Below are positions 1-61,565 of a stretch of DNA of 64,000 nucleotides, piece after piece (position 1 is the stretch's first letter; each line of letters starts with the position of its first letter). Source of the stretch: Balamuthia mandrillaris. Lineage: Eukaryota > Discosea > Longamoebia > Balamuthiidae. A program made the position numbers and the translations under genes. Below the pieces are notes generated by a model. That model was given only the letters and a program-made list of their open reading frames with translations, was not told where the DNA came from and did no database searches. The stretch lies in assembly GCA_031835245.1 (NCBI GenBank), contig JAVKOQ010000131.1:1-64000 (forward strand). Reading direction: 5' to 3'.

Positions 1-2207
1 TGCTTGTTGCTGTGTGGTGATGATCAGCGAGAAGGCCCTCTGCCTCCTCTTGCGCCTTCTCACGGGTACGCCTCTTTTGCCTTTCGCGTTCCTGTGCCCT
101 AAGCAAGTTGCGGTACTTATCTTTTAAATCTACAGTTGTTCGGCGAGAGTGAAAAGTAAAGTTTTGGCGAATGGTTGCCCAATTTCCAGCCCCATACTTT
201 TTAACGCCTTGCATCAAATTTTCCACTTCTGAATCGGTCCAAAACAACCGTTCTGATGGAGTAGAAGTCACACAAGTAAGTAAACCCACAAATGAATGTT
301 CTTGCGAGAGCGTGGTGACGGGATGGGTCAGAAGGCTAAATAATCGCCCGCCCACCTCTCATCAGCACACCCAAGTGGCACAAAAAGGGCAAGGCCGTGA
401 AAACTCCCACAGGGAAATAAAATAGAAATACGAATTCCACTTACCTGTCTTTGACCCCCCTCCACCACTGCTGCCACCGCCACTGACTCGCCTTTTCTTG
501 ACGGTGCTGGGTTGGCTTGTAATTGCTTCACCCTCATTGGTATCGTCAATACTTCGTCTGGGTTGCTTTGGAAGTTCTGGTCCTGTAATAATAATGGTCA
601 AGCGTTAAAAGAAAAAGGCAGAATATTCACAAATATTAGGGCGTAGGTACGAACGTTCAAAGTCACTTGGGGAGCTATGTGTGTCCCATGATGGTGCTGC
701 AGCTGGAGCAGTGCTGGCTGACTCGGTTGCGGTCTCCTTCCGAGTGAGGCTTTCTTCAAGTAAACGGAGAGGGTCATTTTCCAAAGCTCTAGTTCTGAGG
801 ACAAGTGGCGGTCAGTGTGTTATACTATAGCAAACTAGCCGGGCATCAGCGGACTTACCGAAGGCGGGCAGAGCTCTGTGATAAAACCTGAGCTTGCAGC
901 TCTGCCTCTATTTCCTTTTGTTTTTCACTCATCGGCTTGGCTCGCGCTGAGAGTGATAATCGGCCGGAGGAAGCAGGTGTGATGTTGCTTGGTAAGTCAT
1001 GCGCAACAAGGAACTCTCGCACTTCCATATCTGTTTGCTTGAGGATGCCTTGGAACTCTTGTTCAGTTCCAGTAAATAGCTTTCGTAAAATGCTTGCTTT
1101 GATTCTGTAAGTTTATAGGATAAAACCATGAGTATTTGTACAACGTGCGGATAGAAGGGAATGCTAACAACCTAGGTCCTTGCTTTTTTGGCAAGTAGAG
1201 CCCTGACTTCATGTCTTCTGCGAGCTGAAGGCGAACCGGTTAGTTCTACCTAATCTGAACCATGGGCCAATGGTGAACTAGCTAGAAAGTACTCACCAAG
1301 TCCAGCAAGGGTGGCTCGGCTTCCTCTTTGAGAGGAGTAACGAAATCCTTGAACTTGGCCTGGAATACAGAAAGTGGATGTCTGATGGATTAAAAGTCAC
1401 ATAAGTGAGCAAACCCACAAATGAACTTGGCCAGAAATAAAACGGAAAAATGAAATTTCACATACCTGCTGTGAACTTTCTTGATGATAGACTTGGTCTC
1501 GACAGGGGTCATTGCAGCTCGTAAGACCTCGTAGATAGACTCCATTTCTTGACGCAGCTTTGCATAGTTTTCAGCAGTGAGCTCCATATGAGACTCTGGT
1601 CTTTCCTCAGGAAGCATTTCATCTATTGACAGCCGTAAAGCCTCCAAGTCGATAGGTTTCTCCTCGCTGACGTGATGTAAAATGGCCTTTTGGTTTGAGT
1701 GAATGTAAGCGGAGGTGATAAAAACTATGATAGCCTTAGCAAAGGGGGAAAAGGGCAAGTGGGGGCTTGGCAAACCAGTGCTTTTAACTCGGAAAAAATT
1801 TCTTGGTAGGTGTCATAGCGCCCCCCTTCTTTCAGGTACTCCTCTGAAACAATATCTTCGAAGAACTGAACGCACTCTCCAAAGCTTGCTGGAGATGGAG
1901 TAAAAGTCACACAAGTAAGTAAACCCACAAATGAATGTTCTTGCGAGAAATTTTACTTACCTGTCTTGCCCTCCGCTACAATGCCTTGCATGGTGTGCAG
2001 CAGCAACCTCCATGACAGAGAGCTGCTTATGTCTTCTTCCGAGAGAACTAGGAAGAACCAGCGTCAAACCACCAGAGCAACACGCAAAAGCACAAAAACA
2101 AAATACCCACCCTCAAGGCTATAAAGGAGGTGGACCAAGGTGCTGCAATTCTTGGCGCAAGCATACTCCATGATCCAGTGCCAGGGATTCGCCAGTGTCC
2201 CTTCCAT
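1..2207 (-). CDS. TRF-like telomere-repeat binding protein (telobox Myb), C-terminus cut by window edge
   Basis: Ten exons, read right to left: 2111-2207, 1961-2047, 1776-1888, 1466-1686, 1297-1381, 1172-1224, 859-1104, 667-794, 445-582 and 1-252; all phases agree. The last exon encodes a Myb/SANT-type domain beginning RLFWTDSEVENLM, with GAGNWATI and the telobox signature VDLKDKYRNL. This signature is diagnostic of double-stranded TTAGGG-repeat binding proteins (TRF1/TRF2, plant TRFL, Taz1). The N-terminal ~170 residues are helical (NPWHWIMEY, SWRLLLHTMQGIV, FFEDIVSEEYL) and would fit a divergent TRFH dimerisation domain, but that part is inferred. A Gly/Ser linker and basic KKRR precede the Myb domain. 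The start ATG at 2207 opens the first exon whose phase fits. Three of the nine introns share a repeated 3' sequence (see findings). Expected role: telomere binding in the nucleus. Confidence 0.8.
253..444 (-). repeat. Intron 9 of the TRF-like gene: introner-like repeat copy C
   Basis: This 192-nt intron runs from gtaagtgg to ctccatcag on the minus strand. Its last ~56 nt match the ends of introns 1382-1465 and 1889-1960 almost base for base (core CATTTGTGGG, then GTGTGAC). Its first ~32 nt resemble the start of intron 1382-1465 (TTTTATTTC). The ~125 nt at its 3' end also align with the intergenic copy at 23655-23775, making this the fullest copy. Confidence 0.85.
1382..1465 (-). repeat. Intron 4 of the TRF-like gene: introner-like repeat copy B
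   Basis: An 84-nt intron from gtatgtgaa to atccatcag on the minus strand. Its 3' 44 nt are a slightly diverged copy of the shared element (TTCATTTGTGGGTTTGCTC, then TATGTGAC). It lacks the CTCGCAAGAACA block found in the other copies, and its 5' part resembles the start of copy C. Confidence 0.8.
1889..1960 (-). repeat. Intron 2 of the TRF-like gene: introner-like repeat copy A
   Basis: This 72-nt intron is almost entirely the repeated element: a 13-nt donor segment, then CTCGCAAGAACATTC and the shared core, ending in ctccatctccag on the minus strand. It is the smallest full splice unit of the family. The opposite strand contains a good donor-like string (CAAGTAAGTAA). Confidence 0.85.
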
Positions 2208-2840: not shown

Positions 2841-5800
2841 ATGTTTTTAGAAAGGGTTGCTTCGTTGGGCTTACTCCACCATGCCCCTGGTTTGTTTCCA
2901 CCCTTTCCCTTCTTCTCTCTCTCTCTCTCTCTCGTACGGTAAATCTAATCTACGGCGGCCCTAGACACGAACATCCTGAAGGAGTTCCCTCTGGAAGTCA
3001 GGCAAATCATTTCCACCGAAGTCGTTCACTACCTCATGGAAAGCAAAACAGAGGTAACCAAGGTGTTAAGCAGTCGTGCCCACGTGATATGGGCCATGGA
3101 ATGCATTGGTACTGCCTTTACCCTTCCCTTGGATCAAGAAGAGACCATGGCCAAGGCCGTTGAACTTTACCGTCGCTGGACGCTAGAACCAAATCGAAAA
3201 GACTGCCCTGTTGCCATACAAGAAGACTACCAGTTTTTTCTTCAGGTATGTGGCATCTCCTTGTCTGGACTCGAGAACTGCGTCTCTCCTGCTATATGCG
3301 TTCCCCTTCCTCACTCAATCGCACAGAAACTGTTGAGCCACTGTTCTCTTATGTTCGGTTCTCGCACCAAAGATCCTGCTCAACTGGACAGCCAGGCCTC
3401 ACTATGTAAACGCGTGCTCAACATTTACCATACTGTTGGAAAGGACAGGAGCAACCTTACCCGTGAAACATGGGACCTCTTTTTGAAGTTAATGCTCGGT
3501 GTTACAGATTCTCTTCTCAGCGCCCCTCCTGGACAAGATGGACTCGCCCAGCGATTGTGCTCGCACGTTCTGAAGGTTTGTTCCCTCTTCCTCTTCCTCT
3601 TCCTCTTCCTCTTCCTCTTCCTCTTCCTCTTCCTCTCTTCCTCTTCCTCTTCCTCTTCCTCTCTTCCTCTTCCTCTTCCTCTTCCTCTTCCTCTTCCTCT
3701 TCCTCTTCCTCTTCCTCTTCCTCTTCCTCTTCCTCTTCCTCTTCCTCTTCCTCTTCCTCTTCCTCTTCCTCTTCCTCTTCCTCTTCCTCTTCCTCTTCCT
3801 CTTCCTCTTCCTCTTCCAAATTTTTAATGGCAAGCATTGATGTTATCAGGTGCTGTTAGAGTCGTGGCTCTACTCTTCCACAAATGATGCAGCGATGTGG
3901 GGATCGTTACTCAAACACAGCTGTAACTGGATTCGCTTCATGCCAACTATAACTCACTGGAATGCCTTCTCCAAAGCCCTTACCGAACGGTCCATTTCTC
4001 TGCTTTATGGTCCAAAAGAAGGCAAAACTTCAGTCAACATTAGAGTGTATGTACCATTTTATCCTCTCTGCTTCGGTCCTCCTTTCTTAGATATTTTTGC
4101 TAACTCAACTTAGAGAGGGGGCAAATGAAGTTACCACAATTAAGCTGGATGATGAACTTGTTTTGTATGCCTGGCACAAGATGCTGCGTATCCTTTTCCA
4201 TGTTCATGTTTCTCTTTGTTTTTGCCCCGAATCACACAGCTGTTAGCCTTGACTTTGTTGATACCTCCAGATGCCATTGGCGATCCAAATAGGATCGAAG
4301 ATCCTAGTATTTTTGTGACTGCTTTTAGGGGCATAGATACCCTTGTCAACCTTTATTTGCAGGTAGGGAAGGAAAACGAGAAAAGTTATGCACTGAATAC
4401 ACCAAGCGGTAATACAATTTTACATATTTTTGGAGCGTGGCTCTTCCATGCTATCAAACACAAACACGAAGGGTACCTCTATCACTGACATCACTAGTTA
4501 CCTTACTAAAACGCCTATTTTTTTTTTCGCTGTTTGAACGAAAAAGGTTTGAAGAAGGACAAGCCTTGGCTGTGAAGGCATTGTGCAATATTTTCCACAA
4601 GAGGAAAGACACAGAATATCCCACGATATATCTATCTCGCTTTTTTGAATGCTTGCACAAGGTTGGTGAACAGTCGTTTTGTCACTGTTCCTTCCCACAT
4701 TTACACCTTCGAAAAAAACAGGTTCTTCAACAAGATGGGAGAGTCCTAATTTCTGCAATAGTTCACTCTGCTCCTCTCTTTTCACATGAGCTACCCGGCT
4801 TTCGTTCGTTAATTCCAGCGTATATCTACGCTCTCAACAGAATATTGCTTCGGGTAGGAGCACCTAACTCAATGGATGGTTTGCTTTGCCCGCATCACCT
4901 CACTTAGATTCCTATTTTGCCTTCTTGCAGAAAACGAGCAATTATGAGCACTTTGCATCGCAAGAAGACGTGCGCAAGGCTTGCATACGTATCCTGGCTC
5001 AGATCCTGCCCCTTCCCAATCATTTCGGAGATACTCCGTTTGCTGTTAAGACTGTAATGCCATCTATCATTACCAGTCCCGCCAGTGCCAAAGTTCGTAT
5101 ACTTTTAAAGGGAACTCTCCTTTTCATTATTGAGAGTAATTTTTATGAAACATCTCCCTCTGTAGGATACAATCAGCCCAAATCTTCCTGAAGTGGACAC
5201 TTATACCAAGGTTACTTTTCTCTTGGCCAAGATATACATCATGTTTGGTCGTGATTAATTGAGGTTGGTTTATTAACAAACTATTGCCAACAGCTCAAAC
5301 CCCACCTGCGCGTGTTGCTTATTGAGGCTCTCAACAACGAACTTATTCCTAACAATGTGCGGCTCTTGCTACCCCTTTGTTATCAATTTGCTACCGAAGA
5401 CATCACCAGTGATTCTGGATTCGCAAAGAGAATGATAATGGCGATTGGTACCTATCGTAGACTCCTTGTCTCTCTTTCTTGCCTGACCAATAAGATTCAG
5501 GTCAAAAGATAACAAAGCAAGAATGGTCGTCCCAGTGCACTGTTGATGCTTTTCAAACGTTGGGTTATTTTGCATCACTCTACTCGTATTTACAGGGAGC
5601 TACTGAGGTATTTTTTTTAAAAAAATTTAGCAGTTAATTCAGCTCCTTTTAAAAAAACTCTACTCAATAGGTGGCCAACTATGTCGTATTTTCGCTAGCC
5701 CACATGTTCTCCTCATCCGACGCTTCAGCTCCTGTTATCACTGACTCTGCAGAACAGGAAAAACAAATGATTGGTGCATTACAATGTATAACGCATTGGT

Positions 5801-23202: not shown

Positions 23203-24083
23203 ACTGCGTTTCTGTAGTAGGTTTGTTGGATGGAATTTCCTTCTCCTCCCTTCCCTGGGCTGGTGAGTCAGCTGGTCTGGGCGATACTCTTGGCGGTGGA
23301 CTTGGTTTGTCCTCCTCAGGATCACCTACTTTATGCTTCGGCTCCTTTCCCTCTGGCTTGTTGCCAAGTGTGTGCTTCTGAGCCTTCCCTCGTTTTTTTT
23401 TTTTTTTGGTTCTTTCTTTTTGCTAGCCTCGGTTTGTCTCTACGGGGCCGACCACTTTCTTCAGAGCTGAACTGTAGCATGGTTTTCTCTCTCACAACCA
23501 AGATTTCGGTTGGTTGGTGCGTTTGTTTGTTGTTTGTGTGCGAAGAGGCGCATCTGAAATAATTTATTTTTGGCGGCAATTGTTTTCTTGGAAAAATTGC
23601 AAACAGCTTGCGACACGACTTTAGTACCGATCCTTATGATCCGAGCAGGCCCTTAAAAGTCACTTGAGTATCCCACAAATGAAAGTTCTTGCGAGTATGC
23701 GGTGATGAGGTTGGCTAGAGGACAACAGAAACGCCCATCCACTTCTTCCTATCAGCGCAAACCCATTGGCTCCGTCGGGCAACACTACTCCGAAGAATGT
23801 TGCGTGCTCCATTGTTCTTGGCAAAACGCAGCGGTGACCACCATAAAGTCTTGCATCCGTGCGAACCAGTTTTGCAGTGCTATCGTACTCCAGCCTCTTC
23901 CTTGAGAGCTTGACGTTTTATTGTATCTCCTTGGAAAGAGTCGCAAAATGACTTGTTTTGTGGATAAAATGTGTTCCTGCAAAGAGAACCTTGTGTTGGT
24001 ACAAAACATGAAAGAAACTGATGCGAGTGTATAAACTATTCCTGCATTCAAGCTATCCAACCAACCACTGCCACTACCCACCA
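23203..24083. other. Intergenic region with an introner-like copy and duplicated DOCK 3' flank
   Basis: 880 bp downstream of the DOCK gene (-). Contains a T run (23397-23408), the introner-like copy at 23655-23775 and the second copy of the duplicated flank. A 99-codon minus-strand frame (23785-24084) shares AGIVYTLASVS with AGIINTLASAS at 21836-22024, which reflects the duplication rather than a proven gene. Confidence 0.5.
23655..23775 (-). repeat. Intergenic copy of the introner-like element, without splice ends
   Basis: About 120 bp aligning to the 3' two-thirds of intron 253-444: CCCACAAATGAA, GTTCTTGCGAG, then GGTGA..GG, CGCCC..CCAC and CATTGGC on the plus strand. The terminal CTCCATCAG acceptor segment is absent. 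It keeps the orientation seen in the TRF-like gene. Confidence 0.75.
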
Positions 24084-47954: not shown

Positions 47955-50801
47955 CACAAACCTATTTTTTCGGGGTTCTCGCTTTTCTGTGCGGGGACTG
48001 GATTCAACGGAAGAGGAAGAAGGAGAAGAAGAGGAGGGCGTGGAGGCGCCTTGCAACACACTCGAGGAGGAGTGATGATGGCCGCCTTCAGAAGAACTAG
48101 TATTAGTACCAGAGACGATGATGGAGGAGGCAGGAGAAGAGGCAGATGAAGACTGATTGTTGTTGGATGTGGGCAATGGCAGTGATGAAGAGGAAGTATT
48201 TGTAGGAGTACTTGCAGTGCTGGAGTTGGTATAATTGGCAGAAGCGTTCGTTTCAAGGAATTGTGTTTGAAGCAGTTGCTGCAGTTCCTGGTCTTGCTTG
48301 GCTTTGGCCTCAGCGGCTTCGAACTCTTCGAAGATTTCGTCCCACTGCTCGATGACGGTCCTAAGTTCGTTCTCCAGGCGATAAAAGCGACCCACGATGA
48401 GGCCGGTAACAGGCACGATGTCCAGGATCTTTTCTTTACAGTTCTGAGGCTTTTCTAGGCGCTTCATTTCCTTGAGATACTGGATGTCCTTGAGCATGTC
48501 CTCAATCCAGTTACGAGAGACGTCCTCTAGCTTGTCCTTCTCATTATGGAACTTGGCCTCCGCCTCCTCCAGGCTAAAGTTATCATAGTCCATGCGGAAC
48601 TGCTCCGCCAGCACGATCTGAGCGTTGTTGATGAAGAGGTCAATCTTGGGATAGATCTGCTCCTTCAGCCTCTTGATGAGCTTCTGCACGTTGTGTTTGT
48701 CCTCGTTGGGGTTAAGGATTTCCTTGATGAGTTTCAGATTATCCAGCACGGCGCGAGGGTCAGAGGGAGGGTCAGCAATGTAGTCATAAGCGGTGGCATC
48801 AAAGTTGAAGCCACGGCGAACCAGGAACTTGTCGCATTCGTCCTTGATGAGGGTGAGCCACCACTCCGTGGTGAGGTCCTTGGTAGTGCCATTCATCAGC
48901 AGCCGCTTCTCCAGTTGGAGGTGCTCCAGCGCCTCCTCGCAGCAGCGCAGGTGACGAGCGATCCTCATACGAGGGAGGGAGGACCATTCAATGCTACGCA
49001 GCTTCTTCAAGGCCCTCTCTCGGGTGGGCAGGAAGATGTCCCTGGGACCCAAGTTGCTGATGAAGGCCTTGATCTCATCAGCGCCAAAGGCGTCTATCTC
49101 CTTGTAGAATAGCTCTACAGAGGGGTGCTTGGCGATGAGGTCCTCCAGCAGGTTGCGCGTCTTCTTGATGCTGGGCAGGTCAGCGATGCCAACGTCCAGG
49201 CGTTGGCTCTTCTCTATGACGTCAATGTCCACGCCCTGCTGGGCCAGGAAGGCCATGGTCTTCTTCTTGATGGCCTCGTTGAGCTTGCGGGAGAGGTCCG
49301 TGGTGGGGTCGTCCACAAGGCGTTCCATCTTGAAGGGGTCCTGCAGGGTAAGGGCGTCCACCATATCGGGAGTGAAGGGGAAGATATGGGTGGCATCCAG
49401 CAGCTCGGTTGCCCTCTCATCGGGAGAGAGGCTCAGGGCGAAGCGCTCTCCTGCCGCGCCTCCTGAACCAACACCGGCCCGGCCCAGGCAGCGAGCAAAG
49501 AGCACGCCTCCTCGCCAGGCCTCTCCCTCTCTTCGTACAGAGCCTATTACGGCCACCACCAGCTCTCCTTCCTTGGGTTGCATACCCTTGGCTGCCATGT
49601 GAGGCACGCTCTCCAACAGGCTGGCCATCCTCCGCACCTCCACCACCACCTTCTCCGCATCCTCGGCCGCGAACTTGCTCCACGCCACGATCTTTCGCAC
49701 AAGGCTCTCCCTGCTGGTCTCTGCCTCAAAGTCCACCACTGGCACTATTGAGGAGGCCATCCCGGAGGAGGAGGAGGAGTGGTGATGGTGGATGGTGCTG
49801 CCGCCGTCCACCTGCTGGCCGCTGGAGGCGCGGACCTCCGCCAGCATGTCCAAATAGTATGAAAACTTGGCGAGCACGTTGTGGCTGGGCACCATGCCCA
49901 CCACGCTTCCATCCGGATCCATGCGGTGACTTTCCAAGAACTGAAGCAGCTGATGCGCCACCTCCAGGTATCCCGCTCTGCCTCTTTCCCCTTTCTCTCC
50001 CACTCCGCTTCCTCCGATGCCTCCTCCGCTGGCATTGAGCTCTCCGCTGCTAGTCCCTTGTCGTTCCCTTTCTCTCTCTCGCTCTTTCTCTCGTTCCTTC
50101 TCTCTTTCTCTCTCGCGCTCCCGTTCTCGCTCCGAGAATTGCTTCTGGTAGGTCTGAAGGAGGGAGAGGTAATGCTTGTAACGCTCCCCTCCCAACAGCT
50201 CTCGGTAGGCCACCAGCCGGTTGTGAAAGACCTCCGCCCACTTGATCTGCCACTTGCGCTGCAGGTCCTGCGCCAGCCCCAACACCCCCTCCATGCTCTC
50301 CACAAACTCCTTGAGCTGCGCCCTGTATACCTTCTTCTTGACCTTCTTCTTATCTACATACTTCTCTGGCTTTCGCAGGCTGTCCCATTGGGCAAACATG
50401 GTGAGGATCTCCTTGAAGAGCTTGGCTTTGAGCGGGGGTAGACCCTCCAACAGGGCCGCCAGGTTGGGGATGTTGCCCGTGGAGGAGGTGGAGGAGGCGG
50501 AAGAAGCGGTGGGGGCAGCATTGGTGCTGCAGGCGAGGGAGGGGTTGAGGAAGATGCCGGAGGAGGTGGAGGAGGAGAGGGAGAGGGACTGGGCGGAGAA
50601 ACCGGAGGAAGAGAGCAGCGAGGAGGAAGAGGAAGGCGATTGTGAAGAAGAAACCGAGGAGGAGGAGGAAGAGCTGTGTGAAGATGAAGAAGAAGAGGAG
50701 GAGGAAGAAGATGAAGAGGTTTGGCCTTGTAACGTTTTTGTGGAGGTGGTGAGGGTGGAGGAGTGAGGCTCAGGCGAGCCTGAAAACCGTCGCGTAGTCA
50801 T
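47831..50801 (-). CDS. Large helical protein of unknown function
   Basis: Two exons (47962-50801, 47831-47897), 968 residues, starting MTTRRFSGSPEPHSS. Residues 1-110 are Ser-rich. A charged helical region follows (AQWDSLRKPEKYVDKKKVKKKVY), then a REREREREK run coded by a GA microsatellite. Residues ~430-900 look folded and all-helical: ATELLDATHIFPFTPDMV, RKLNEAIKKKTMAFLAQQG, HPSVELFYKEIDAFG, LRSIEWSSLPRMRIARHLRC, WWLTLIKDECDKFLV and ILDIVPVTGLIVGRFYRLENEL. A second Ser-rich segment and a basic C-terminus (KIKQAKPKAAKR) end it. Unusually for this window it is almost intronless. I do not recognise the family. Confidence 0.8.
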
Positions 50802-59371: not shown

Positions 59372-61565
59372 CAGAGAGAAGAGGAAGTAGCAAACAAACA
59401 AGAGAAGGGAGAAGAGAGAGAAAAAGAAATAACATAAAAGAGAAAAGAGAATACCGTGCCAACACAAGGATTTTCGCAGTTAAGCTGTGTAGATGAGAAT
59501 TACATCAGACATAGAGCCATAGAGGAGAACGAAGATAAAGGAAAAAAGAGAGAAGAAAAAGAGAATAGAGAGAACAAGGAAGGCAAGAAGAGATGGAAAC
59601 AAACAGCAGAAGCATCGCTGCAACGGGTTTTGTCGTCCAGAGTAAAGTCAAGAATAGTGTCTTCGCATGTAAGCTAAGAAATTGTTAACTGCACGTCAGA
59701 AAAGCAAAAGGAGAACGAAGAAAGAAAAAAATACACAATGAAAAAAAAAAAATAAACGAAACGCAAATAATAAAGTAAAAGTGTAATGCTTAAACGAGTA
59801 TACCTGTACTACAGAACAATTGTTAAAGGTGCTGTTGGGCAACTTTTGGTCTGCAGCAATGAGCTCTCCGCTGCAATTCAGTTTGCGAATGTAACAAAGA
59901 GAAGAAGAAGTTGATGAAGAGGAGGAAGAAGAGGAAGATGAAGAGGAGGAAGAGGAGGAAGCATGATCGTCAGAGTGAGGCAAGGTAGGAGGTGGTCCAC
60001 CCTCGCAAGACAAGCTGTCCACTCGACAAGTAGAGAGCACGCCATAGTAACGGTTGTACTTTGGGTCAACCACCCTGCCGCTGCAGTTTAACTGGTTTTT
60101 TTTTGTTTTGTGCACATTTGTTTAAAACAAAGAAAAATAACAATAAAAAGAAAAGAAAAAGAAAAAAAGAAACAACAAAAAGAGAAAAGAAGAGAAGAGA
60201 AGAGAAGAGAAGAGAAGAGAAGAGAAGAGAAGAGAAGAGAAGAGAAGAGAAGAGAAGAGAAGAGAAGAGAAGAGAAGAGAAGAGAAGAGAAGAGAAGAGA
60301 AGAGAAGAGAAGAGAAGAGAAGAGGAGAGAAGAGAAGAGAAGAGAAGAGAAGAGAAGAGAAGAGAAGAGAAGAGAAGAGGAGAGAAGAGAAGAGAAGAGA
60401 AGAGAAGAGAAGAGAAGAGAACGATGAAGAGAAGAGAAGAGAACGACGAGAAGAGAAGAGAAGAGAAGAGAAGAGAAGAGAAGAGAAGAGAAGAGAAGAG
60501 AAGAGAAGAGAAGAGAAGAGAAGAGAAGAGGAGAGAAGAGAAGAGAAGAGAAGAGAAGAGAAGAGAAGAGAAGAGAAGAGAAGAGAAGAGAAGAGAAGAG
60601 AAGAGAAGAGAAGAGAACGATGAAGAGAAGAGAAGAGAAGAGAAGAGAACGATGAAGAGAACGATGAAGAGAACGATGAAGAGAACGATGAAGAGAACGA
60701 CGAAGAGAAGAGAAGAGAAGAGAAGAGAAGAGAAGAGAACGACGAAGAGAAGAGAACGACGAAGAGAAGAGAAGAGAAGAGAAGAGAAGAGAAGAGAAGA
60801 GGAGAGAAGAGAAGAGAACGATGAAGAGAACGATGAAGAGAAGAAAGCGATGAAGAGAAGAGAAGAGAACAGAACAGAACAGAACAGAAGAAAAGAAAAG
60901 AAAAGAAAAGAAAAGAAAAGAAAAGAAAAGAAAAGAAAATAGAAAAGAAAAGAAAAGAAAAGAAAAGAAAAAGAAAAATAAAAATAAAAATAAATAGAAA
61001 AGAAACAAAAAAGCCAAACCTTGGCAAGGGAGCAAGAGTGAGCGGGTCCACATATGGGGAGCTCCTCACGGATGGGAAGCCCATAGGGAGGGTTGCACGT
61101 CCTCTCCTCGTCCTCCTCCCCAAAGGCCGTCCTCCTCCTGTTCTTGTTCTTTCGCTCAGCCTCCTCCGCGAGCGCGCTTGGCTTCATGCGAAGGGAGCGT
61201 CGATACAAGAGGGATCCCCCTTTATCCGTCTCCCTCTCCTCCTCCTTCTCCTTGACTTCGGAGGGCCAAGAGGGAGCGAGTCGATAGGTGAACGTGCTCC
61301 ACCACTGAGGCAGCATGCGCAGGGTGTCTAGGAGCTCTTGCATGGGGTCCTCCCCGTGCTCTTCCAAAAGCACCCTCACTGGATCCCATGAGGAAGAGGA
61401 AGAGGGAGAGGGAGAGGAGGAAGGAGATCTATGAGGGAGCTGCCGTTGGGTGGTGGTGCTGGGGATGGAAGGAGCTGCCGCTGCTGTTACGCTCAACCAG
61501 GAGAGAAGAACAAGGAGAAGAGGTAAGAACAAGAGCAGCAGAGAAGAGGAGAAGGACAGCCTCAT
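58182..61565 (-). CDS. Secreted type I membrane glycoprotein with Cys-rich ectodomain, function unknown
   Basis: Multi-exon. The first exon (61020-61565) begins MRLSFSSSLLLLFLPLLLVLL, a strong signal peptide. The ectodomain repeats a short unit LNCSG..., seen as LNCSGRVVDP, LNCSGELIAAD, and related LTCED and LNCEN, each followed by a Cys ~25-40 residues later; then an EGF-like VTRCVCPLDMMGENCEEW. N-glycosylation sites are frequent (NCSG, NCSFTNTS, NNTQHNETW, NMTAA). Near the C-terminus a probable membrane span (LFGYPLGVVVASGVLYWTI) precedes a basic cytosolic tail RYLRYRQTQLEKKAA. The final join uses donor G|gtgttt and acceptor aaagag. A 928-nt intron (60092-61019) is almost all repeat. Likely a surface receptor or adhesin-like protein; no family recognised. 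Confidence 0.7.
60180..60960 (-). repeat. (GAAGA)n pentanucleotide array of ~780 bp
   Basis: Largest repeat in the window, almost filling one intron. The unit is AGAAG. It is broken by higher-order interruptions: AACGATGAAGAG and AACGACGAAGAG blocks at 60419-60440 and 60613-60850, then GAAAA units after 60890. The sense strand reads TCTTC. Confidence 0.95.

Follow-up and report, generated by a model that had tools for sequence, protein, structure and literature searches.

Three introns in a Myb-domain gene of Balamuthia mandrillaris

The window analysed here is a stretch of 64,000 nucleotides (nt) from the amoebozoan Balamuthia mandrillaris (assembly GCA_031835245.1, contig JAVKOQ010000131.1, positions 1 to 64,000). 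Near its start, on the minus strand, lies a gene that encodes a Myb-type domain and contains three introns, here called A, B and C, whose 3' parts are nearly identical. A first-pass annotation of the window had noticed this similarity and had suggested introner-like elements that were gained recently by copying. All three stretches were confirmed and have the form of GT–AG introns, at 253..444 (A, 192 nt), 1382..1465 (B, 84 nt) and 1889..1960 (C, 72 nt), and their alignment gives the common 3' core CATTTGTGGGTTTRCTYACTTRTGTGACTTYTAMTCCATC, which matches far above chance. As shown below, it is highly likely that these introns are introners, and that they are non-autonomous, internally deleted copies of a Balamuthia IS607 transposon that encodes TnpA and a Fanzor2/TnpB nuclease and has predicted splice sites at its ends.

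Nearly all of A, B and C consists of element sequence. In A, 33 nt derived from the left end of the element (412-444) and 114 nt derived from its right end (253-366) enclose 45 unassigned nt. In B, 32 nt of left end (1434-1465) and 44 nt of right end (1382-1425) are separated by 8 unassigned nt, and in C, 11 nt of left end (1950-1960) are followed directly by 61 nt of right end (1889-1949), with three extra nt in the acceptor region (CATCTCCAG). The first-pass annotation had described the element as essentially the whole of intron A and the sharing as limited to the 3' part. The former holds for all three introns, but A is the longest of them and not a bare core; the 3' core is indeed common, but the left end is also derived from the element in each intron.

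The right end of each intron contains a minus-strand hairpin, which is GTGGGT-TT-ACTTAC in A (276..289), GTGGGTTTGCTCAC in B (1405..1418) and GTGGGTTTACTTAC in C (1915..1928). The same helix is present in the right-end alignment, with GTGRGTTTACTCAC in most copies. The donor-like CAAGTAAGT on the reverse strand, previously read as a sign that the element could be spliced from either side, is the complement of the hairpin in C and forms one of its arms; it does not speak for reverse splicing. On the exon side of each donor stands the motif RCAG (R, purine), which reads ACAG at 445..448 (A), GCAG at 1466..1469 (B) and ACAG at 1961..1964 (C), again on the minus strand.

Intron-free counterparts

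A homologue of the Myb-domain gene on contig C101 is 96% identical to the window over the first 1,384 nt and 91-96% identical across the aligned gene. The two contigs are co-linear into the next gene, at 94% identity, and again at window position 48,500. On C101, introns B and C are exactly missing and the CAG at their borders is single, whereas A is kept; no empty counterpart of A was found. Since A is retained and only small gaps interrupt the alignment elsewhere in the gene, a processed copy is excluded for C101. A further contig, C184, is 100% identical to the window across the gene that holds A, B and C.

Empty sites were also found for introners elsewhere in the assembly. A first search used the joined flanks (40+40 nt) of 24 of the 28 junctions whose reading frames are described below, and as 40 of its 44 candidates were scored, its yield is a lower bound. 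An uninterrupted match on another contig, with 91-100% identity, was present for 14 of the 24 junctions and spanned at least 79 nt in 13 cases and 67 nt in one. A second search of four junctions, one of them a repeat, added one further empty counterpart, and a third, with the 1,085-nt copy described below, added none. In total, 15 of the 28 junctions searched thus have a counterpart that differs by exactly the intron, which bears out the earlier suggestion of recent gain by copying. Both-end copies with an empty site show a single CAG in that site and the same dinucleotide at both junctions, and they lack a target duplication, as is characteristic of IS607. The assembly appears to hold several haplotypes, or the genome is polyploid, and the intron-free contigs are therefore most simply alleles that differ by an intron.

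A genome-wide family with predicted splice sites at its ends

The 64.8-Mb Balamuthia mandrillaris assembly was searched with patterns for both element ends. The 26-nt right-end core, with up to three mismatches, gave 67 matches against 0 for a reversed control. The element is present in genes of many kinds, with the same splice borders as in A, B and C. A 40-nt right-end pattern and a left-end pattern each gave 26 matches, against 0 in the control, and among the candidates found by BLAST with copy C, the 40 of 58 that were scored were 86-100% identical. These genome counts are not fully independent, because some contigs look like near-identical pairs (C130/C184, C145/C153, C39/C43 and C115/C284). 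When compared with 71 right ends, 18 of the 26 left ends had a right-end core downstream on the same strand, at a distance of 72 to 2,359 nt. We analysed 47 distinct right-end copies, of which 31 have both ends, 15 have no intact left end and one has no acceptor. The both-end copies measure 63-215 nt, apart from the long ones of 1,005 and 1,085 nt, and the lengths of their end-derived parts reveal introns that are similar over most of their length in different genes.

In all 31 both-end copies the element borders coincide with the splice sites and read RCAG|GT…AG. Among 29 tallied copies, the purine at position -4 is A 22 times and G seven times, the CAG does not vary and 21 donors read GTAAGT; the remaining two copies, on C284 and C115, read ACAG|GTAAGT. 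In neighbouring sequence, RCAG makes up 101 of 8,381 4-mers (1.2%) and a purine precedes 101 of 161 CAGs. As these background frequencies are lower, the purine and the CAG that follows it both seem to be selected. After the acceptor, the first base is evenly distributed (C7 A9 G7 T6, n=29), unlike in a proto-splice site. With regard to ascertainment, the searches that yielded 22 of the 31 donors placed no condition on the exon side, and three donors came from a pattern that required a G at position -1. The element itself begins with GTAAGTG at its left end and finishes with …TCCATCAG at its right end, and a copy that lies between exon bases therefore takes the form of a GT–AG intron.

The lengths of the retained left and right ends differ from copy to copy, with 27 distinct combinations among 28 both-end copies; the single repeat is a homologous pair. 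Even two homologous copies of one site, L032 and L076, differ in length (146 vs 173 nt). Thus, the short introners seem not to multiply as a fixed unit, and each of them probably loses its middle during or after insertion. A left end of 8-20 nt is probably too short for TnpA binding, which makes it unlikely that copies with such an end move again.

Contig C73 carries seven of the 67 right-end matches, among them that of a structurally complete copy and that of a shorter element directly upstream. On contig C28, the flanks of a right-end-only copy (L059), GCCAGCACTCTTCT and AGAAGAGTGCTGGC, are inverted, as might be expected if its insertion had involved a fold-back.

Predicted splicing of the introners

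When the element is removed, a frame of 77-160 amino acids (aa) is open across the junction in 28 of 28 copies. This test is a weak one, as 160 aa is the maximum visible, other frames may be open as well and the longest frame may not be the true one. Ten of the joined proteins were searched with Pfam. In five of them, a domain above the cut-off spans the junction: a Homeodomain (57 of 57 positions), Lyase_1, Guanylate_cyc, polyprenyl_synt and GCP_C. In three others no domain crosses it (an ABC_membrane domain before the junction, a Myb domain after it, and two Sua5 domains, one on each side), and in the last two no Pfam domain above the cut-off was found. A deposited Balamuthia prenyl synthetase omits the introner exactly and is 100% identical over 259 aa to the predicted spliced sequence, although this model may itself be a prediction and not an observation of RNA. 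Eight relatives of the prenyl synthetase that were examined are continuous across the introner position. The domains that span the junction and the deposited protein are indirect signs of the predicted splicing.

A candidate parent with IS607 TnpA and a Fanzor2-type nuclease

Several copies contain coding sequence upstream of the right end. In L074, the TnpA of IS607 was recognised by NCBIfam NF033518 (132.9 bits, cut-off 110, E 9.5e-39) and the Fanzor2/TnpB nuclease by guided_TnpB (146.1 bits, cut-off 100, E 1.7e-42). The domains expected of an IS607 TnpA are both reported for this protein, Resolvase above the cut-off (3.9e-15) and the N-terminal MerR below it (2.7e-4), and sequence searches match it to solved IS607 catalytic domains. 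L074 has the same gene order as the copy on C73, where the left end (134190), TnpA (134320-134967), Fanzor (135116-136447) and the right end (136524-136549) follow each other within ~2.37 kilobases. As in other IS607 elements, tnpB adjoins tnpA, on contigs C73, C39, C43, C11 and C718; C39 and C43 show an ordered left end, TnpA and Fanzor, and no right end was found on them.

The nuclease carries two signs of Fanzor2, LDPGVRTF with the DPG of RuvC-I and EAWTSKTCxxC with the alternative glutamate six residues before the zinc finger, at a spacing of 140. It does not match the full regular expression published for Fanzor (PMC10711439), as its second zinc knuckle is CxxxxC. Its nearest solved structure by sequence is the TnpB-like protein L79. 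One of the longer copies gives a protein with 100% identity to one already deposited for Balamuthia mandrillaris. A deposited protein of 672 aa joins TnpA and Fanzor; as these occupy different frames in L074, the gene model must contain an internal intron.

The single viral_contigs relative has 26% identity over part of the nuclease. Matches were present in 61 phage records, and the ten listed are 28-38% identical, none of them covering 80% of the query. For TnpA, 823 relatives were found, and the 120 listed are mostly unnamed or metagenome proteins. A viral source was considered for the element and dropped: the 20 matches of a right-end 16-mer in viral_contigs are, by our estimate, at about chance level for a collection of that size.

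Two other families were encountered. One is a further Fanzor family (~43% identity) with about two dozen copies and open frames of ~570-610 aa (e.g., C7:286670, C516:8306 and C153:102291); the TnpA genome search found no TnpA match beside these copies, which are not linked to the introners described here. The other is a second, divergent IS607 TnpA–TnpB family on contigs C27, C57, C71, C622 and C774, with best TnpA matches of 41-52% identity.

Two long copies bridge the gap between this transposon and the short introners. In the 1,005-nt copy L014, parts of TnpA and the final part of Fanzor lie between an introner left end and a right end, and the copy forms an exact GT–AG insertion within an open reading frame. 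When its flanks are joined, the resulting 120 bases are matched over their whole length, at 100%, by contigs C556 and C128. A recognisable derivative of the IS607–Fanzor transposon has therefore been inserted as an exact intron. The 1,085-nt copy, present on C284 and C115, has Fanzor remnants, RCAG|GT…AG borders and an open frame across the junction; a search of the assembly with its flanks found no empty counterpart.

The window itself contains a decayed fourth copy, a relic of the parent right end with a fragment of the Fanzor C-terminus at 23653..23813 on the minus strand, which was found by motif scan and read by eye. Its acceptor has been mutated away and it is no longer an introner. Elsewhere in the window, long AAGAG-type and (CCTCTT)n arrays lie at 60146-61005 and 3584-3817, and GA-rich repeats are frequent throughout. 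A segment of 1,401 nt at 48500-49900 is identical in four contigs (C130, C101, C298 and C97), and a fifth, partial one is 98% identical.

Structure of the right end

The region that extends from the end of the nuclease gene as far as the right end has a better fold than shuffled sequences (z -2.36, with 3 of 200 shuffles as good). In an alignment of ten long right ends, 94.4% of cells pair and both partners have changed in five pairs (mean of 2.4 in shuffles, 5 of 500 of which reach this number), while the 24 pair types represent a mild excess (reached by 49 of 500 shuffles). The structure used for these counts came from one of the ten sequences, which favours that structure. The GATGGA–TCCATC pair is invariant in all ten, and is thus neither for nor against covariation. 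Its 3' strand, TCCATC, is the splice-acceptor region. GATGGA is found just past the stop codon of the nuclease in five of the six places where the frame is readable, and inside the last codons in the sixth.

A pseudoknot is described as a requirement for the guide RNA of IS607 TnpB and is also predicted for the guide RNAs of Fanzor2 (PMC10711439). By analogy, the GATGGA–TCCATC helix may be an element of a guide-RNA pseudoknot. No Rfam family, including the group I ribozyme that defines IStrons, was found in the window or in L074, L014, L082 and L028.

Mechanism and alternative explanations

IS607 is reported to recombine at matching dinucleotides without duplicating the target (PMC6188088, PMC10711439). 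For the Balamuthia element, TnpA would recombine the transposon into an AG dinucleotide common to both junctions (…RC-AG-[GTAAGTG…TCCATC-AG]-…). An AG core fits because CAG is present at each of the two junctions and once in the empty site. The AG of the upstream exon and the terminal AG of the intron would then be the two products of one recombination, and splicing would leave a single CAG, restoring codon order with the protein unchanged. A private internal deletion in most copies, during or after insertion, would give rise to introns of 63-215 nt. Recombination at an AG core is thus suggested by the borders, and the activity of TnpA and Fanzor is putative.

It is also possible, though doubtful, that the element spreads as a spliceosomal IStron by RNA-guided homing. 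In transcripts of the host gene that read through the element, the Fanzor guide scaffold would stop precisely at the 3' splice site, the downstream exon would act as the guide and RCAG as the adjacent motif. The nuclease would cut the intron-free allele, and repair would copy the intron in; interrupted copying would account for the private internal deletions. As TCCATC overlaps the splice acceptor, splicing and guide-RNA formation would exclude each other under such homing.

Several observations do not sit easily with an IS607-derived origin. The core of the bacterial IS607 elements that have been studied is described as GG (PMC6188088, PMC10711439) and not AG as found here, although we do not treat the GG core as defining. 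L074 lacks the first 5 nt of the left end and hence the donor, and the C73 copy is known from match positions alone, its bases unread. Among the 31 donors, six were picked out visually, by queries that contained CAG or on re-examination. By pattern, eight of 26 left ends have no right end; 15 of the 47 right-end copies are without an intact left end and one is without an acceptor, and many copies retain just 8-20 nt of left end. For 13 of the 28 junctions, the assembly searches found no empty counterpart. At most sites the empty contig may be an allele or a paralogue, and gain, as opposed to loss, is judged from a comparison within one assembly.

Finally, three of the 15 truncated copies have target duplications, which IS607 recombination does not explain. 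These copies, L026, L060 and L067 (contigs C10, C30 and C187), are truncated at the 5' side, have an exact right end and show a target duplication of 8-12 nt right after CAG (11, 15 and 14 nt, respectively, if CAG is included). Single-copy empty counterparts were found for L026 (98%) and L067 (92%), and only a weak match of 77% for L060. The other 12 copies without an intact left end show no duplication of more than 6 nt. The three copies look like products of target-primed reverse transcription or of the repair of staggered breaks. The duplicated target of L026 starts with GT, which would serve as the 5' splice site.

The three truncated copies give some weight to spread through RNA, in which another enzyme inserts the intron, excised or still in the pre-mRNA, into new sites by reverse splicing or reverse transcription, and the IS607 element is only the source of the sequence. 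Two of them were verified against empty sites, and the exact GT–AG borders of the introners agree with such a route as well. However, where a both-end copy has an empty site, nothing is duplicated except the CAG that is shared with the element end, the even base composition after the acceptor lacks the G expected of a proto-splice site, and the ends belong to a DNA transposon that carries its own recombinase. We regard spread through RNA as unlikely. Loss of old introns from the intron-free contigs is a much weaker candidate, and we judge it very unlikely. In a comparison within one assembly, precise loss at a single site would look identical to gain, but 15 of 28 junctions would each require an exact loss. 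Moreover, only the introners are missing from the gene in the window while the rest aligns, and, unlike old introns, the introners of unrelated genes have sequence in common.

That an ordinary dispersed repeat has inserted into pre-existing introns would suit the 15 right-end copies that do not adjoin an intact left end. It is contradicted by the 31 both-end copies, all of which have splice sites as their ends, and refuted for the 15 both-end junctions with an empty counterpart, from which the whole intron is absent; overall, we give it hardly any credence. Just as improbable is a conserved functional RNA, similar to small nucleolar RNAs, that is hosted in the introns. The somewhat better folding of the right end than of shuffled sequence and the helices with a few two-sided changes would be compatible with it, but such a fold is also what the guide-RNA scaffold of TnpB or Fanzor would show, and the short copies have most of the structured part deleted. 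A small structured RNA was tried as the identity of the introners and rejected, as no Rfam family matched.

Relation to known introns and transposons

Introners, IStrons and IS607 elements with Fanzor2 are each already known. The Balamuthia introns resemble published introners, which are described as near-identical introns in many genes with borders at splice sites, recently gained and probably non-autonomous transposons (Gozashti et al. 2022, PMC9860276). The families described there have target-site duplications and/or terminal inverted repeats, or neither, whereas here a parent was found, the IS607–Fanzor2 element. The main text of that survey mentions neither IS607, a recombinase, TnpB, Amoebozoa nor Balamuthia.

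The IStrons of group B likewise combine an IS607-type recombinase and TnpB in an element that is also an intron, tolerate insertion in genes and use a dinucleotide target (PMC4227781). They are described as containing a group I ribozyme and as targeting GG in bacteria, whereas the Balamuthia element has predicted spliceosomal splicing, no ribozyme family found and the site RCAG. Eukaryotic and viral IS607 elements with Fanzor2, such as ISvMimi1, share TnpA, Fanzor2, the DPG and the alternative glutamate, but the main text of their description does not report splice-site ends or intron behaviour and contains the word 'intron' 0 times (PMC10711439). The shintrons of mirusviruses are spliceosomal introns with DNA endonuclease genes that are thought to drive their spread (PMC12768974). 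Unlike the introners, they are viral and are described with homing endonucleases (HNH, GIY-YIG, VSR-like and PD-(D/E)XK) and no recombinase-bearing transposon.

In the open-licence literature, we found no description of an IS607–Fanzor2 transposon that has the form of a spliceosomal intron and leaves introners as its remnants; one may exist elsewhere. The origin of new spliceosomal introns is an old question. To our knowledge, the mobilising element is known for few introner families. Introners and horizontal transfer are reportedly the subject of a PNAS paper of 2025, which could already list this species, and a 2024 paper reportedly deals with the conflict between intron and guide RNA in IStrons.

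In Balamuthia, the parent transposon, the intermediates, the finished introns and the intron-free counterparts are all present in one genome assembly, which makes intron gain directly testable in one organism. The parent is an element of prokaryotic type with a probable RNA-guided nuclease, and its ends have the form of splice sites. By analogy, the Balamuthia introners are best read as a spliceosomal counterpart of the bacterial IStrons. This suggests that eukaryotes evolved their own version of the solution found by IStrons in bacteria, a transposon that hides as an intron.

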